From Angustibacter sp. Root456 (GTDB taxonomy: Bacteria; Actinomycetota; Actinomycetes; Actinomycetales; Angustibacteraceae): a DNA stretch of 56,712 bases. A program made the position numbers and the translations under genes. Below, piece after piece: positions 4,668 through 10,852 of the stretch. Numbering within the stretch: position 1 is the first letter of the stretch; each line of letters begins with the position of its first letter. The DNA lies in contig NZ_LMER01000018.1 in NCBI RefSeq assembly GCF_001426435.1, positions 169,675 through 226,386 on the forward strand, read 5' to 3'. The notes under the pieces were generated by a model. That model was not told the DNA's origin, ran no database searches, and saw only the letters and a list, made by a program, of their open reading frames with translations.

Positions 4668-5470
4668 GGGCGCAGGACGTCGTAGGTCAGCCGCAGCAGG
4701 AGCACCGACGACACGACGATAAACACCACCCGCACGAATCGGGCCCCGCGGGCGACGGCGGTGCGCGCGCCGAGGTACCCGCCGACCACGTTGGCCGCCC
4801 CCATGAGCAGGCCGAGCTTCCACAGCACCACGCCCTGCGGCACGAACACCACCAGGGCACCGAGGTTGGTGGCGACGTTGGCGATCTTGGCCTTCGCGCT
4901 CGCCTCCACGAAGGCGTAGCCGACGAGGCTCACGAGCGCGAAGACGAGGAACGAGCCGGTGCCCGGGCCCACCGCGCCGTCGTACACGCCGATCACGAGC
5001 CCGATGGCCCCCGCCGTCGCGTGATGGCGACGCCCGCTGTGCCGCAGGGCCGTCACCGCACCGAGCCCGGGACGACGCACGGTGTACACCAGCACCACGG
5101 CGAGCGCCACGACGACCACCGGCCGGATCGCCGCCGACGGCAGCACCAGCGCCAGGCCCGCCCCGGCCAGCGCGCCGACGAGGGCGGCAGCGGCCATGGG
5201 CAGCGCCGTGCGCAGGTCCGGGTGCACCCGTCGGTAGTACGTGACGGCGCTCGTGCTGGTGCCGCAGATCGACGCGATCTTGTTGGTGGCCAGCGAGTGC
5301 ACGGCCGCGGTACCTGGCCCGAGCGCGATCAGCAGCGCGGGCAGCTGCACGAGGCCCCCGCCGCCCACGACGGCATCGACCCAGCCCGCGACGAGCGCCG
5401 CGAGCAGGAGCAGGACGACGGTGCCCCAGCCGACGTGGTCGGGTAGGCCCGCCCACGCGGCGGCGCTCAC
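4664..5470 (-). CDS. TauE/SafE family sulfite/anion exporter-like membrane protein
   Basis: A 268-residue integral membrane protein with about eight hydrophobic segments. It carries both family half-motifs: [15 protein letters not shown] with [16 protein letters not shown] in the N-terminal half, and [17 protein letters not shown] with [13 protein letters not shown] in the C-terminal half. Members move sulfite, sulfoacetate or other organosulfur anions across the membrane; specificity cannot be read from sequence. The GTG start (5470-5468) overlaps the proS stop as GTGA, so it is likely translated from the proS transcript. That pairing is probably positional rather than functional. Confidence 0.88.
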
Positions 5471-7227
5471 GAGCGGCCGCGCACGACCTCGATGACCCGG
5501 GTGACGACGTCCGCGACCGGCACGTCGGTGCGCTCCCCGGTCGCGCGGTCCTTGACCTCGACGACGCCGTCGGCGAGCCCCTTGCCCACGACGACGATCG
5601 TCGGGACGCCGATGAGCTCGGCGTCCTTGAACTTCACGCCGGGCGAGACCTTCGGGCGATCGTCGTAGAGCACCGACACCCCCTGACGCTCGAGCTCGCC
5701 GGCCAACCGCTCGGCCTCGACGAACACCGCGTCGTCCTTGCCCGTGGCCACCAGGTGGACGTCGTACGGCGAGAGCTCGCGCGGCCACACCAGGCCGGCG
5801 TCGTCGTGGCTGTGCTCGGCCACAGCGGCCACAGCACGTGAGACGCCGATGCCGTAGGAACCCATGGTCACCGTGACCTGCTTGCCGTTCTCGTCGAGCA
5901 CCTTCAGGCCGAGTGCCTCGGCGTACTTGCGACCGAGCTGGAAGATGTGGCCGATCTCGATGCCCCGGGCCAGCTCGAGCGGGCCCGAGCCGTCGGGTGC
6001 GGGGTCACCCGCACGCACCTCGGCCGCCTCGATCGTGCCGTCGGCGTCGAAGTCGCGGCCCTTGACCAGGTCGAAGACGTGCTTGCCCGGCTCGTTGGCT
6101 CCCGTGATCCACACGGTGCCGTCGACCACCCGAGGGTCCAGGAGGTAGCGGATGCCGCTGGAGCTGTTCTCTCCCAGGGCCTGGGGGCCGATGTAGCCCT
6201 TGACGAGGGCGGGGTGCTTGGCGAAGTCGTCGTCGGTGAAGGGCTCGACCTCGGCGGGCTCGACCTGCGCGGCGAGGCGCTTGGCGTCGACCTCGCGGTC
6301 GCCGGGCAGGCCGATCACGAGCGGCTCACGGGTTCCGTCGGGCTGCACCAGCATGAAGACGACGTTCTTGAGCGTGTCGGCGGCCGACCACTCACGCTCC
6401 GGGAAGCGTTGTGCCGCAAGGGCGACGAGCGAGTCGATGGTCGGGGTGTCGGGGGTGTCCTCGACGTGCGCCGCAGGGACGTCGTCCCACCCGCGCACCG
6501 GCGGCGGCACCGTCACGACGGCCTCGACGTTCGCGGCGTAACCCCCCGGCGAGCGGACATAGGTGTCCTCGCCGTGCTCGGCGCGGGCGAGGAACTCCTC
6601 GCTGGCGCTACCGCCCATGGCGCCCGACATCGCCGACACGGGCACGTAGTCGAGACCCAGGCGGTCGAAGATGCGGATGTACGCCGCCCGGTGCGCGTCG
6701 TACGAGCGCTGCAGGCCCGCGTCGTCGACGTCGAAGGAGTAGGAGTCCTTCATGACGAACTCGCGCCCGCGCAGCAGGCCGGCGCGCGGCCGCGCCTCGT
6801 CGCGGTACTTCGTCTGGATCTGGTAGAGCGACAGCGGCAGGTCCTTGTACGACGAGTAGAGGTCCTTGACGACGAGGGTGAACATCTCCTCGTGCGTCGG
6901 GCCCAGCAGGTAGTCGCCGCCCTTGCGGTCCTTGAGCCGGAACAGGTTGTCGCCGTACTCGGTCCAGCGACCGGTGGCCTCGTAGGGCTCGCGCGGCAGC
7001 AGCGCCGGGAACTGCAGCTCCTGGAAGCCGGCGGCGTCCATCTCCTCGCGCACGATCCGCTCGACGTTGCGCAGCACGCGCAGGCCGAGCGGCAGCCAGG
7101 TGTACACCCCGGGAGCCGCACGCCGGATGTACCCCGCCCGCACGAGCAGACGGTGGCTCGGCACCTCGGCGTCCGACGGATCCTCGCGCAGGGTGCGCAG
7201 GAACAGGGACGACAGGCGCGCGATCAC
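5467..7227 (-). CDS. proS: Proline--tRNA ligase
   Basis: Charges tRNA-Pro. At 586 residues it is the long bacterial type. The class II core opens with [12 protein letters not shown] and has motif 2 in [19 protein letters not shown]. Motif 3 is [16 protein letters not shown]. The insertion editing domain (about 230-390) lies between motifs 2 and 3 and contains [10 protein letters not shown] and [10 protein letters not shown]. The anticodon-binding domain ([16 protein letters not shown] onward) closes the protein. The ATG at 7227 gives the canonical N-terminus. The tauE gene overlaps its 3' end. Confidence 0.97.
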
Positions 7228-7262
7228 GAGGGCTCCTCGGGTGGTGCGGGGACGACGAGAGC

Positions 7263-7856
7263 CTAGTCGGCGACCCGCGGCCGGGTGCCGAGGTGGGCGG
7301 CGAGGCCACGCTCACGGGCCGCGCCGAGCGGCAGGTCGGCGGTCAGGACCACGAACGGTACGCCGTCGTGTTCGAGCCGCGCCGGCAGCTCGGTGAAGCC
7401 CAGGCGGCGGTAGAAGCCGCGCGCCGGGTTGGCCCCGCCCTGGGTGGTGAGCACCGCTCGGGGGTGGTCGACGGCGCCGAGCAGGCTCGCCACCATCCAC
7501 CGGCCCAGGCCCTGCCCGTGAGACGGCGGGTCGACGAACACCGCGCACAGCTCGAAGGCGTCGTCGAGCACGGCGTCGGCACCGACGCCGGCCAGCGGAG
7601 CCCTCACCCAGGTGTCCCACCACGACCCCGGCTGCGTCGTCATGCCGTAGGCGTAGCCCACAAGCCGCTGGTCGTCCCACGCGCCCACGCAGCAGTACCC
7701 CTCGCGCTCGGCGTGCCGGGCGTACGGCGGCTCAGCGTCGTCCGCCCCGCCGACACCGGTCGCCTCGACCACGGTGGCCAGGGCTGCGGCCTGCAGCGTG
7801 CGGGCCGCCACGGTGTGCGCGAGGAGGTCGAGCGGCTCCACGCGCAGCGGGCTCAC
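7263..7856 (-). CDS. GNAT family N-acetyltransferase
   Basis: A 197-residue GNAT-fold protein. β4 is [12 protein letters not shown], followed by the acetyl-CoA pyrophosphate loop [14 protein letters not shown] (Q/RxxGxG/A type). [20 protein letters not shown] is the usual GNAT C-terminal strand. Such enzymes acetylate amines on small molecules or proteins; the substrate is unknown. The GTG start overlaps the stop of the upstream VOC gene (GTGA at 7856-7853), indicating co-translation. The VOC-GNAT pair follows the small ribbon-helix-helix gene, so all three may form one transcript. Confidence 0.85.
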
Positions 7857-8575
7857 CCGGGGACCTGCGCGGCGCGGACGACGAGCCGCACGCCGTCGGG
7901 GTCGATGACCTCCAGCGCGTCGTCGTCACCCTCCATGGCGTCGTCGTGCCCGGCACCGCGCAGACGCGCCTCGACCTGCACGAGCGGCTCGCTGGTGACC
8001 AGGACGAGCTCGACGACGGCGGCGCGGTGCCGGGCGCCGTCCGGGCCGAGGCTAGAGGCGACCTGCGGGGCTCCCGGGAGGACGTCGACGAGCCCGTCGA
8101 CGCCGAGCGCCTGCGTGAACGCCCGGTAGGCCGCGGGGTCCTGCGCCCGCACCAGCACCCGCACCCGCCAGCGCGGGTCGGCGCCACTGGCGTCGCGCTC
8201 GCGGTAGCCGTGCAGGTCGCTGGCCCGCTGGTCGACGGCCACCTGGGCACCGTTGGGGTCGGTGACCACGAGCACGCGGCCGTAGGCCTCGTCGTACACG
8301 GTCGCGTCGTCGAACCCCGCGAAGCGCAGCCGCTCGGCGAGGGCGTCCGCGTCGTCGCACTCCGCCGACAGCGTCGTACGTCCCGACGGCTGGCGCGACG
8401 CGCTGGTCGTGGCGTCGTGCAGGGCGAGCATGCCGCCGCCACCGGCGACGAGGTCGACCCAGCCGCCCCGCCCGCTCTCGACCCGGCTGGCCAGGCCCAG
8501 CAGCTGCGCGAACTGCTGACCGCCCCGGACGTCGGCGGTGAACCGCACCGGTCGCAGGGTGACGTCAGGCTCCAC
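7853..8575 (-). CDS. VOC (glyoxalase/bleomycin-resistance fold) protein, two domains
   Basis: A 240-residue protein with two vicinal-oxygen-chelate-like halves. The first half includes TADVRGGQQFAQLLGL, WVDLVAGGGGMLALHD and RVLVVTDPNGAQVAV. The second includes YRAFTQALGVDGLVDV, VVELVLVTSEPLVQVEARL and ALEVIDPDGVRLVV. The DP(N/D)G turn in both halves is typical. Metal-ligand positions are not clearly conserved, so enzymatic activity is uncertain. The GTG start at 8575 lies two bases after the stop of the ribbon-helix-helix gene, and the stop overlaps the GNAT gene. Confidence 0.8.
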   Translation of the reverse strand: MEPDVTLRPVRFTADVRGGQQFAQLLGLASRVESGRGGWVDLVAGGGGMLALHDATTSASRQPSGRTTLSAECDDADALAERLRFAGFDDATVYDEAYGRVLVVTDPNGAQVAVDQRASDLHGYRERDASGADPRWRVRVLVRAQDPAAYRAFTQALGVDGLVDVLPGAPQVASSLGPDGARHRAAVVELVLVTSEPLVQVEARLRGAGHDDAMEGDDDALEVIDPDGVRLVVRAAQVPG

Positions 8576-8577
8576 GG

Positions 8578-8733
8578 TCAGGCTCCCTCGTGCTCGTCGA
8601 CGTACTCGGTGAGCGCGTCCTCGACGAGCGCCGACAGGCTCCTGTGGTCGTCGATCGCCAGGTGCTTGACCCGGCGGACCAGCTCTCGCGGGAGGTACAC
8701 GTTGAACTGCACCTTGGCGGCAGTCTCACCCAT
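8578..8733 (-). CDS. Small ribbon-helix-helix (CopG/Arc-type) DNA-binding protein
   Basis: A 51-residue gene. The N-terminal strand [18 protein letters not shown] followed by two helices ([25 protein letters not shown]) is the classic RHH pattern of CopG-like repressors and orphan antitoxins. β-strand residues V8, F10 and V12 would point into the DNA groove. No toxin-like partner follows; the downstream genes are a VOC protein and a GNAT. The ATG at 8733 is preceded within 25 bases by three CTAG units at 8-bp period, a plausible autoregulatory operator. It is probably the first gene of a RHH-VOC-GNAT operon. The domain call is firm; the regulatory role is inferred. Confidence 0.85.
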
Positions 8734-8735
8734 GC

Positions 8736-8755
8736 CTAGGATGCTAGCACTCTAG
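8736..8755. promoter_or_regulatory. Three CTAG units at 8-bp period: candidate RHH operator
   Basis: CTAG lies at 8736-8739, 8744-8747 and 8752-8755, exactly 8 bp apart. The first is inside CCTAGG and the second inside the palindrome TGCTAGCA. The array begins three bases upstream of the start codon of the ribbon-helix-helix gene. RHH repressors such as MetJ bind tandem 8-bp boxes. CTAG is generally scarce in GC-rich genomes, so the array is unlikely to be random. Confidence 0.55.
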
Positions 8756-8765
8756 CCGGTGGGGG

Positions 8766-9617
8766 TCAGAACAGGATCGTGGCGAAGGTGCCGACGCGCT
8801 CGAACCCGACCTTCTCGTAGACGGCGATCGCGCGGGCGTTGTAGTCGTTGACGTAGAGCGACACGATCGGGGCGTTGTCGCGCAGCGCCGCCTCCACCAC
8901 GGCGGCCATGGCTGGCGCGGCCAGTCCCTGGCCGCGCCAACGCGGGTCGACCCACACGCCGTGCACCTGCGCCACCTGCGAGCTCACCGAGCCCAGGTCG
9001 GCCTTGAAGACCACCTCACCCGCCGGTCCGAGTCGCACGAGCGTGCGCCCCTGGCGCAGCAGGTCGGTGACCCGGCGCCGGTAGGCCATGCCGCCGTCGG
9101 CGCCGACCGGGGAGTACCCCACCTCCTCGGTGAACATCGCCACCGACGCCGGCAGCACCGCGATGACGTCCTCGGGCAGGGCCCGCAGCACGTGCGGGTC
9201 GGGTTCGACCAACGGTGGTGCCTCGATGCTGTAGAGCGGCTGGCACGGGCGCGTCTCGCGCGCCCGCCAACCCATCGCCTGCAGCCGCGCCCAGATGCCG
9301 TTGACCGCCGCGGCCTCACCGAACAGGGAGGAGTAGGTACCGCCGGCCCGGCGCGCCCGGCTCGCGAAGGCGTCCATGGCGGCCGGTGTGCGCACCTCGA
9401 TCGGGATGAGGTTGGCCCCCGACCAGCAGGCGCTCGTCAGCTCCCCGTGCTCGAACAGCCCCCAGATCTCGCCACCCAGGCGCACCGGCTCGCTGCCGAC
9501 GAGCTCGACCCGCTCGGCCACCATGACGTTGGCGACCGGGTCGCGGGCGCACAGCTCGAGGATCGCGTCGCGGTCTCGACGCTCCAGGGTCCGCATGGCG
9601 GTGGCGCTGCGCAGCAC
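8766..9617 (-). CDS. DUF4081-GNAT two-domain N-acetyltransferase
   Basis: A 283-residue protein of the actinobacterial family found beside ispG. The N-terminal DUF4081 part (about 1-130) has RDAILELCARDPVANVMVAERVE and EIWGLFEHGELTSACWSGANLIPI. The C-terminal GNAT domain has VFKADLGSVSSQVAQVHGVWVDP and the CoA loop RWRGQGLAAPAMAAVV. YVNDYNARAIAVYEKVGFERVG closes it. The substrate is not established. The GTG start at 9617 keeps the usual N-terminus, although an ATG at 9596 (MRTLERRDRDAI) is a credible alternative. It reads in the same direction as ispG, 92 bases downstream, with a GC-rich hairpin between. Confidence 0.88.
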   Translation of the reverse strand: MLRSATAMRTLERRDRDAILELCARDPVANVMVAERVELVGSEPVRLGGEIWGLFEHGELTSACWSGANLIPIEVRTPAAMDAFASRARRAGGTYSSLFGEAAAVNGIWARLQAMGWRARETRPCQPLYSIEAPPLVEPDPHVLRALPEDVIAVLPASVAMFTEEVGYSPVGADGGMAYRRRVTDLLRQGRTLVRLGPAGEVVFKADLGSVSSQVAQVHGVWVDPRWRGQGLAAPAMAAVVEAALRDNAPIVSLYVNDYNARAIAVYEKVGFERVGTFATILF

Positions 9618-9673
9618 GACGTCAGCCTGCCGTGCACGCCAAGGCCGTGTCGACCGACGTCCTCACTGCGGAC

Positions 9674-9690
9674 GCGCGCCCCCGGCGCGC
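9674..9690. terminator. GC-rich hairpin downstream of ispG
   Basis: GCGCGCC (9674-9680), CCC loop, GGCGCGC (9684-9690). A 7-bp all-GC stem in the 92-bp gap between ispG and the DUF4081-GNAT gene, without a U-tract. Possible terminator or attenuator. Confidence 0.4.
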
Positions 9691-9709
9691 TGCCCCGGCC
9701 TGCACCGCG

Positions 9710-10852
9710 TCAGGAGACGCTGACCGACGGCTCACCCTCAGCGTCCATGGTCTCGGCAAGGCGCATGGCCTCCTCGATGAGCGTCTCGACGATGGCCGAC
9801 TCGGGCACGGTCTTGATGACCTCGCCCTTGACGAAGATCTGCCCCTTGCCGTTGCCGGACGCCACCCCGAGGTCGGCCTCGCGGGCCTCCCCCGGCCCGT
9901 TCACGACGCAGCCCATGACGGCCACGCGCAACGGGACCTCGAGGCCCTCGAGCCCGGCGGTGACCTCCTCGGCCAGCTTGTAGACGTCGACCTGCGCCCG
10001 CCCGCACGACGGGCACGACACGATCTCGAGCTTGCGCGGGCGCAGGTTGAGCGACTGCAGGATCGCGATGCCGACCTTGACCTCCTCGACCGGAGGCGCC
10101 GACAGGGAGACGCGGATGGTGTCGCCGATGCCCTTCGACAGCAACGCGCCGAACGCCGTCGCCGACTTGATGGTGCCCTGGAACGCCGGGCCGGCCTCGG
10201 TGACACCGAGGTGCAGCGGCCAGTCACCCCGCTCGGCGAGCAGCTCGTAGGCGCGCACCATGACGACCGGGTCGTTGTGCTTCACCGAGATCTTGAAGTC
10301 GTGGAAGTCGTGCTCCTCGAACAGCGACGCCTCCCACACCGCGGACTCCACGAGCGCCTCGGGCGTGGCCTTGCCGTACTTCTCCAGCAGCCGCGGGTCG
10401 AGCGAGCCGGCGTTGACGCCGATGCGCAGCGACACGCCGGCGTCCTTGGCGGCGCGGGCGATGGCACCCACCTGGTCGTCGAACTTGCGGATGTTGCCGG
10501 GGTTGACGCGCACGGCCGCGCAGCCGGCGTCGATCGCGGCGAAGACGTACTTGGGCTGGAAGTGGATGTCGGCGATCACCGGGATCTGCGACTTCTTGGC
10601 GATCGCGGGCAGCGCGTCGGCGTCGTCCTGGCTCGGGCAGGCCACACGCACGATGTCGCAACCGGTGGCGGTGAGCTCGGCGATCTGCTGCAGCGTGGCG
10701 TTGACGTCGGCCGTGAGCGTGGTGGTCATCGACTGCACGCTGATGGGCGCGTCACCGCCGACCTCGACCGAGCCCACCTTGATCTTGCGCGACGGACGCC
10801 GTGGGGCGAGCACGGGCGGGGGCAGGGCGGGCAGACCGAGGGAGACGCTCAT
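9710..10852 (-). CDS. ispG: 4-hydroxy-3-methylbut-2-enyl diphosphate synthase (flavodoxin-type)
   Basis: Penultimate enzyme of the MEP isoprenoid pathway, a [4Fe-4S] reductive dehydratase. The 380-residue product has the TIM-barrel start ([20 protein letters not shown]), VNPGNIRKF and VSVKHND-like ISVKHND. The cluster ligands are two Cys in [10 protein letters not shown] and one in [17 protein letters not shown], the last followed by the conserved Glu. Length matches the two-domain bacterial form. The ATG at 10852 gives the expected N-terminus. Neighbours rseP and dxr complete the conserved dxr-rseP-ispG block, and dxr acts in the same pathway. Confidence 0.97.

Follow-up and report, generated by a model that had tools for sequence, protein, structure and literature searches.

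Directly before a gene for a 51-residue ribbon-helix-helix (RHH) protein, Angustibacter sp. Root456 carries three CTAG words that are very probably the site of that protein's self-repression, because the array is kept in relatives across many actinobacteria. Comparison with these relatives reveals a phased array that lies on promoter-like sequence and goes with this RHH family, and it shows that the RHH gene is paired with a gene for a VOC protein. We consider it very likely that the RHH protein is an autorepressor acting on boxes with the spacing of MetJ operators, over a probably leaderless promoter, and that it controls an RHH-VOC operon. The window, by which we mean the whole stretch of DNA analyzed, comprises 56,712 nucleotides of contig NZ_LMER01000018.1, and its relevant features are collected in Table 1.

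Table 1. Features at and around the CTAG array (window coordinates)
Feature	Position	Strand	Basis
ispG	9710-10852	-	named by match position and synteny
DUF4081-GNAT gene, upstream neighbor of the RHH gene	8766-9617	-	
Predicted -35 element CTGACC, 17 nt before the -10, overlapping the DUF4081-GNAT stop codon	8764..8769	-	sequence
Predicted operator, three CTAG boxes at 8-bp period	8736..8755	-	pattern count and conservation in relatives
Predicted -10 element TAGCAT, 7 nt before ATG	8741..8746	-	sequence, relatives; same hexamer in stnYp (available text of PMC10339500)
RHH (CopG-type) protein, 51 aa, StnY relative, probable autorepressor	8578..8733	-	PF01402, 9kkd profile match, model
Two-domain VOC-fold protein, 240 aa, conserved operon partner	7853..8575	-	PF00903 in relatives, model, adjacency
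GNAT acetyltransferase, third gene, 4-nt overlap with the VOC gene; non-conserved part	7263..7856	-	Pfam
Proline--tRNA-ligase-like gene	5467-7227	-	Pfam/ORF map

The array lies in the 32-bp gap between the DUF4081-GNAT gene and the RHH gene. Its boxes stand at 8736-8739, 8744-8747 and 8752-8755, at an exact 8-bp period; on the minus strand they read CTAGAGTGCTAGCATCCTAGGC-ATG, with 2 bp between the last box and the RHH start at 8733. The preliminary description had reported three CTAG units at this period directly before the 51-residue RHH gene, and it was right about their arrangement and place; only the limits that it gave, 8735-8756, need trimming by one base on each side. Its remark that CTAG is scarce also holds for the window, since the word occurs 17 times against the 51.7 expected from dinucleotide shuffles. 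The pattern CTAGN4CTAG has two overlapping matches in the window, both in the array (shuffles: mean, 0.07; largest, 1). Across the 3.84-Mb genome, TAGN4CTAGN4CTNG matches the array only, once per strand, while the reversed control pattern gives three matches, and neither TAGN4CTAGN4CTNG nor TAGNNTGCTAGCAT marks a second site in this genome. A chance origin of the array is ruled out by shuffles both of the window and of the upstream regions of 132 relatives. The surroundings (5467-10852: ispG, DUF4081-GNAT, RHH-VOC and proline--tRNA ligase) are partly common to Kribbella, where locus L037 has matches to all three neighbors, ispG, DUF4081-GNAT and proline--tRNA ligase, in changed order. This partial sharing suggests an old chromosomal locus.

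The comparison of upstream regions drew on 159 family loci (some genomes being represented twice), of which 157 had enough upstream DNA, L045 and L182 being excluded for too little; once redundancy above 75% ungapped identity across 70 nt was removed, 132 non-redundant loci remained. Loci L012, L014, L038 and L061, which have no alignment anchor, were omitted from one upstream alignment only. CTAG is present upstream in all 132 loci (500 dinucleotide-shuffle rounds: mean, 52.6; maximum, 66). At least two copies at exactly 8 bp occur in 96 of them, compared with a mean of 0.30 and a maximum of 3 in 500 shuffles, and at least three boxes in 39, a number for which the shuffle maximum was 0. The remaining 36 loci have a single exact CTAG. 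Distances between CTAG words fall at 8 (142 pairs), 16 (49 pairs) and 24 bp (8 pairs), and every other distance is represented by at most 3 pairs. The longest runs have five boxes (L095 and L180) or four (L094 and L195), with up to five in Streptomyces. In an earlier set of 108 loci, the frequency profile has conserved blocks at -8, 0 and +8, separated by less constrained positions, and the overall profile, CTAGnTTGCTAGCATnCTAG, is close to a dyad. Some single-CTAG loci have outer boxes of the forms CNAG and CTNG, such as CGAG and CTCG in L170; when boxes matching three of four bases are admitted, at least two in-phase boxes are found in 131/132 loci, a looser count made without a shuffle control and given no weight here. 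The earlier suggestion that the boxes at 8 bp go with an RHH gene under autoregulation, which orthologues lacking phased CTAG would have refuted, is supported, since all 132 loci keep CTAG and 96 keep the phase; autoregulation is probable.

Judged from its sequence, the array sits on the -10 element of a probably leaderless promoter, a feature absent from the preliminary description. The layout in the window is CTGACC-N17-TAGCAT-N7-ATG, with TGCTAGCAT present before the RHH gene; CTGACC fits the -35 form nTGACn quoted in the available text of PMC10339500. In 121/132 loci the end of a TANNNT hexamer lies 5-8 nt upstream of the first in-frame start. Because the -10 stands this close to the start codon (7 nt in the window), the mRNA is probably leaderless. 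From the middle box to the first in-frame start there are 5 (11 loci), 13-14 (75 loci) or 21-22 bases (29 loci), a series in steps of one 8-bp unit. Start codon and boxes are thus in phase with each other, and the unit that acts as the -10 can differ from locus to locus. TTG is enriched at the -35 distance (offsets -23 and -22), where 32/108 loci have it. A scan for E. coli-type promoters called no promoter at the window array.

By sequence, the protein encoded behind this array belongs to the StnY-type CopG/RHH family, a relation that the preliminary description does not mention. It scores 36.3 bits against PF01402 (RHH_1/CopG; curated cut-off, 20.5), and the domain occupies residues 10-46 of the 51. 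Its predicted structure has a pLDDT of 88.3, and among solved structures the closest is 9kkd, whose title reads "the structure of StnY" (E of 9.7e-22 with the family profile); with StnY itself it shares 63-64% identity over 42-43 residues (phmmer E of 1.2e-12).

Counting its own genome, relatives of the RHH protein occur in 2/2 genomes of the genus and 2/4 of the family, and matches at an E of 1e-3 in 53/396 genomes of the order. Three of those 53 (L147, L149 and L150) are other RHH genes, with family-profile scores of 19.8, 13.4 and none, respectively, and were left out of all counts; L147 and L149 have no CTAG in the upstream stretch examined. The family profile (A1) matches 43/394 genomes of the class at an E of 1e-6 and, at an E of 1e-8, 4/396 genomes of the phylum and 31/295 Streptomyces genomes, one Streptomyces match (G1289) lying outside the loci examined. 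The assignment of this last genus to Streptomyces follows from one match (G1129), whose position is identical with that in record NZ_CP109451.1. Named hosts include Kribbella, Micrococcus, Microbacterium, Ornithinimicrobium and Amycolatopsis, along with Streptomyces and Burkholderia plasmid records. One Burkholderia multivorans record (L096, 2400-3900) holds three CTAG boxes at 8 bp, an RHH gene, a single-domain VOC gene and an LCM methyltransferase gene, and two further Burkholderia records match the RHH protein. So complete a set in a beta-proteobacterium probably reflects horizontal transfer from or to actinobacteria. A contig labelled as an Acidobacteria MAG (L059) has an RHH gene and array close to those of Ornithinimicrobium and Serinicoccus, and that label is possibly a binning error.

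Three lines of comparative evidence, namely, the placement of sites, a covariation at residue 13 and the register with Arc, point to the adjacent RHH protein as the reader of the array. Across the 396 genomes of the order, TAGNNTGCTAGCAT has 29 sites in 27 genomes, a total that does not exceed the 35 which we count for the reversed control pattern, so only the placement of the sites, and not their number, speaks for a link to the RHH protein. As to placement, 21 of the 29 sites lie directly before RHH matches, and 24 of the 27 site-bearing genomes have such a match. Five of the other eight precede ABC exporter operons, one a second VOC gene, and two (in G120 and G139) are apparently unrelated. 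The exporter operons (ATPase plus permeases; L164, L165, L166, L107 and L109 in G188, G090, G174, G294 and G244, respectively) occur in genomes that all belong to one family, and the ATPase of one operon was typed with Pfam. Four of these five genomes also have the RHH gene. No StnY-type RHH was found by profile search in G244, G120 or G139, and its absence from G244 weakens a simple regulon claim for that genome. In L112 (G075; 1501-1991) the word recurs ~40 nt upstream of another VOC gene, whose product is above the Pfam cut-offs for Glyoxalase_6 and Glyoxalase.

Residue 13 of the DNA-binding strand is Y in 128/132 loci. The middle CTAG is followed by C in 128/154 loci with Y13 and in 0/8 with W, Q or S13 (Fisher 2e-6), counted over 162 loci that were not de-duplicated and include L200, L203 and L204 from outside the 132; the p-value overstates the covariation, as there are only about three independent changes. 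W13 goes with CTAGTA (L143, L203 and L204), Q13 with CTAGGT (L144-L146 and L200) and S13 likewise with CTAGGT (L148). Members with S13, Q13 or W13 keep CTAG boxes and have lost TAGCAT. The four Q13 loci (L144, L145, L146 and L200), with their CTAGGT boxes, come from one genus and have no VOC gene behind the RHH gene. Q9 and N11 are invariant in the 132 loci and occupy the positions by which Arc reads bases.

Next to the RHH gene, on its downstream side, stands a VOC relative in 103/108 loci (a count to which L168-L197, part of the material for the 132, do not belong), and the commonest junction is a 4-nt overlap (63 loci). The five loci with another arrangement are L086, L135, L144, L145 and L148; a VOC gene is missing behind the RHH gene in the Q13 and S13 loci and present in the three W13 loci. 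The VOC protein of the window is below every Pfam and other curated cut-off (Glyoxalase_3, 12.8 of 25.1 bits), and its relatives match PF00903 at an E of up to 0.01 in 22/44 and 21/33 cases. Its model (pLDDT 95.2) has a two-domain VOC fold, with best PDB matches to AbxF (8stb, E of 6.5e-10), Rv0577 (3oxh) and also catechol dioxygenases, at TM-scores of about 0.5. Single VOC relatives match FosK, Ble-MBL or Fos_GSH weakly. The predicted fold is thus shared with VOC proteins that bind or modify antibiotics (AbxF, bleomycin and fosfomycin resistance proteins and Rv0577), from which the window protein differs in its sub-cut-off scores and modest TM-scores.

What follows the VOC gene is more variable. 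From 47 candidate open reading frames listed as third genes, some of them in the wrong frame, 14 picked as gene-like were typed with Pfam. They are MFS transporters (L002, L013, L053, L143, L203 and L204), an ABC ATPase (L048), LCM methyltransferases (L084, L095, L096, L097 and L154) and, besides that of the window, GNATs in L034 and L046 that are of other kinds; by tblastn the window GNAT is found in 1/61 loci (L001). The RHH-VOC-GNAT module proposed in the preliminary description is therefore rejected as a fixed unit: its core is RHH-VOC, and the third gene varies among exporters, GNATs and methyltransferases, the GNAT being, as far as gene content tells, one of several interchangeable third genes. 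The RHH-VOC operon resembles a cassette for resistance or detoxification whose accessory gene can be exchanged.

MetJ has an RHH fold and binds met boxes repeated at 8 bp. Our array shares with it the fold of the putative reader and the 8-bp box spacing (three boxes in the window and at least two in 96/132 relatives), but its boxes are CTAG rather than the met box, and its 51-residue RHH protein is without sign of an S-adenosylmethionine-binding part. None of the six Pfam matches of the window RHH protein up to an E of 1 is a MetJ model, which gives it no place in the MetJ family; on this comparison it is like MetJ in box spacing, yet not MetJ. The model also matches the Arc repressor of phage P22 (Foldseek, 1par, E of 4.3e-3), and the sequences agree in an ungapped, in-register but weak match (1arq residues 8-42, E of 1.1). 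Here, in contrast to Arc, residue 13 is mostly Y across StnY-type proteins, the boxes are tandem at 8 bp rather than those of Arc's own operator, and the setting is a cellular, predictedly autoregulated operon with a VOC gene. Among the matches listed in a search of open-access titles and abstracts, which included the word TGCTAGCA, there was no description of the array or of the RHH-VOC pair.

The nearest published system is stnYp, the promoter of a CopG-family gene from the streptonigrin producer Streptomyces flocculus, which the available text of PMC10339500 describes as strong and constitutive, with strong activity in four Streptomyces hosts. Its -10 is TAGCAT, preceded by TGC as an extended -10, with a 17-nt spacer; the two systems thus have in common the RHH family and a TGCTAGCAT-type promoter before the gene, and differ in that stnYp is published only as a constitutive promoter whereas we read the window array as an operator. 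The words operator, repress- and autoregul- are absent from the main text of PMC10339500 as available, in which no comparison of stnYp with and without StnY was found. Two further papers, in their accessible portions, use stnYp as a strong promoter (PMC13144596 and PMC13137831), one reporting that ermEp* was better in some tests (PMC13137831); the word repressor is absent from the texts of both that could be consulted. Our analysis suggests that stnYp is probably repressible and has been used where its repressor is missing. Its minimal form extends to 21 bp past the -10 (PMC10339500, available text). If it ends at the annotated start codon, transcription would begin 5-6 nt past the -10, close to an in-frame start of the type seen in L170, whose RHH protein is like StnY at 38 of 43 residues; for this reason StnY itself may be translated from a leaderless mRNA, beginning at an earlier start codon.

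The resemblance to stnYp also feeds an alternative in which the conserved word is nothing more than a leaderless promoter's strong extended -10 (TGCTAGCAT), and in which the remaining CTAGs are incidental and not bound as an operator. That TAGCAT and the preceding TGC are the -10 and extended -10 given for stnYp (PMC10339500, as available), that a start codon keeps its distance from TANNNT in 121/132 loci and that 36/132 loci have one exact CTAG only would all fit, but the boxes at -8 and +8 are conserved where the intervening bases are not, runs of four or five boxes exist, boxes persist where TAGCAT is lost (L148, L143 and L145), and the base after CTAG varies in step with residue 13. We regard this account as improbable. 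A still smaller chance attaches to the reading of the array by another DNA-binding protein, or by the VOC protein, instead of the adjacent RHH protein. Three site-bearing genomes without a StnY-type RHH, among them G244 with its site before an exporter operon, and the adjacency of the VOC gene in 103/108 loci could be taken in its favor; against it, 24/27 genomes with the word have an RHH match, residue 13 tracks the box flank, and Q13 and S13 members have boxes with no VOC gene behind.

A type II toxin-antitoxin operon, with the RHH protein as antitoxin and an unrecognized toxin, is hardly credible. A small RHH gene with a partner overlapping by 4 nt and a predicted autoregulatory array would suit such an operon, as would sub-cut-off matches to the RelB-like NF048017 (22.5 of 50 bits) and Antitox_RHH (20.4 of 27.2 bits). 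With the RHH_1 domain filling residues 10-46 of 51, though, the protein lacks a toxin-binding tail, its partner has a VOC fold (from PF00903 in relatives, the model and PDB matches), and the sole PADLOC match of the pair is weak (0.015). We therefore reject the toxin-antitoxin pair, in agreement with the preliminary description, which had doubted it.

Self-repression by the RHH protein thus remains our preferred reading, from which we infer binding by the RHH protein, repression, a leaderless mRNA, an inducing signal and a substrate. Each palindromic CTAG box would take one RHH dimer, with the dimer's two-stranded sheet inserted into the major groove, and the dimers would sit side by side at 8 bp in the fashion of MetJ on met boxes. 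Because the boxes span roughly -22 to -3 of the promoter, bound repressor would block RNA polymerase, and the RHH protein would limit transcription both of its own gene and of the VOC gene that follows (in the window also of the GNAT gene). The VOC protein would probably bind or modify a toxic small molecule, which the product of the third gene may export or modify. We also raise, tentatively and with more doubt than confidence, the idea that the RHH protein, as an array reader too small for a sensor domain, and the VOC protein, as ligand sensor, form one two-protein switch, in which the VOC protein would bind the RHH protein and hold it on the operator or release it when a toxic metabolite appears. 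If this were true, a small-molecule-binding protein would stand in the place that the toxin has in RHH toxin-antitoxin operons.

With these observations, a tiny, widespread and little-described family of actinobacterial regulators gains a predicted operator and promoter architecture, together with a candidate recognition rule that relates residue 13 to the base after CTAG. They also offer a possible reason for the strong constitutive behavior of stnYp in the accessible accounts, as probably a repressible promoter away from its repressor; if so, a StnY-type gene in the host could silence stnYp, and adding one could make it switchable. The VOC partners, sometimes found beside exporters or methyltransferases, are candidate resistance or detoxification proteins.
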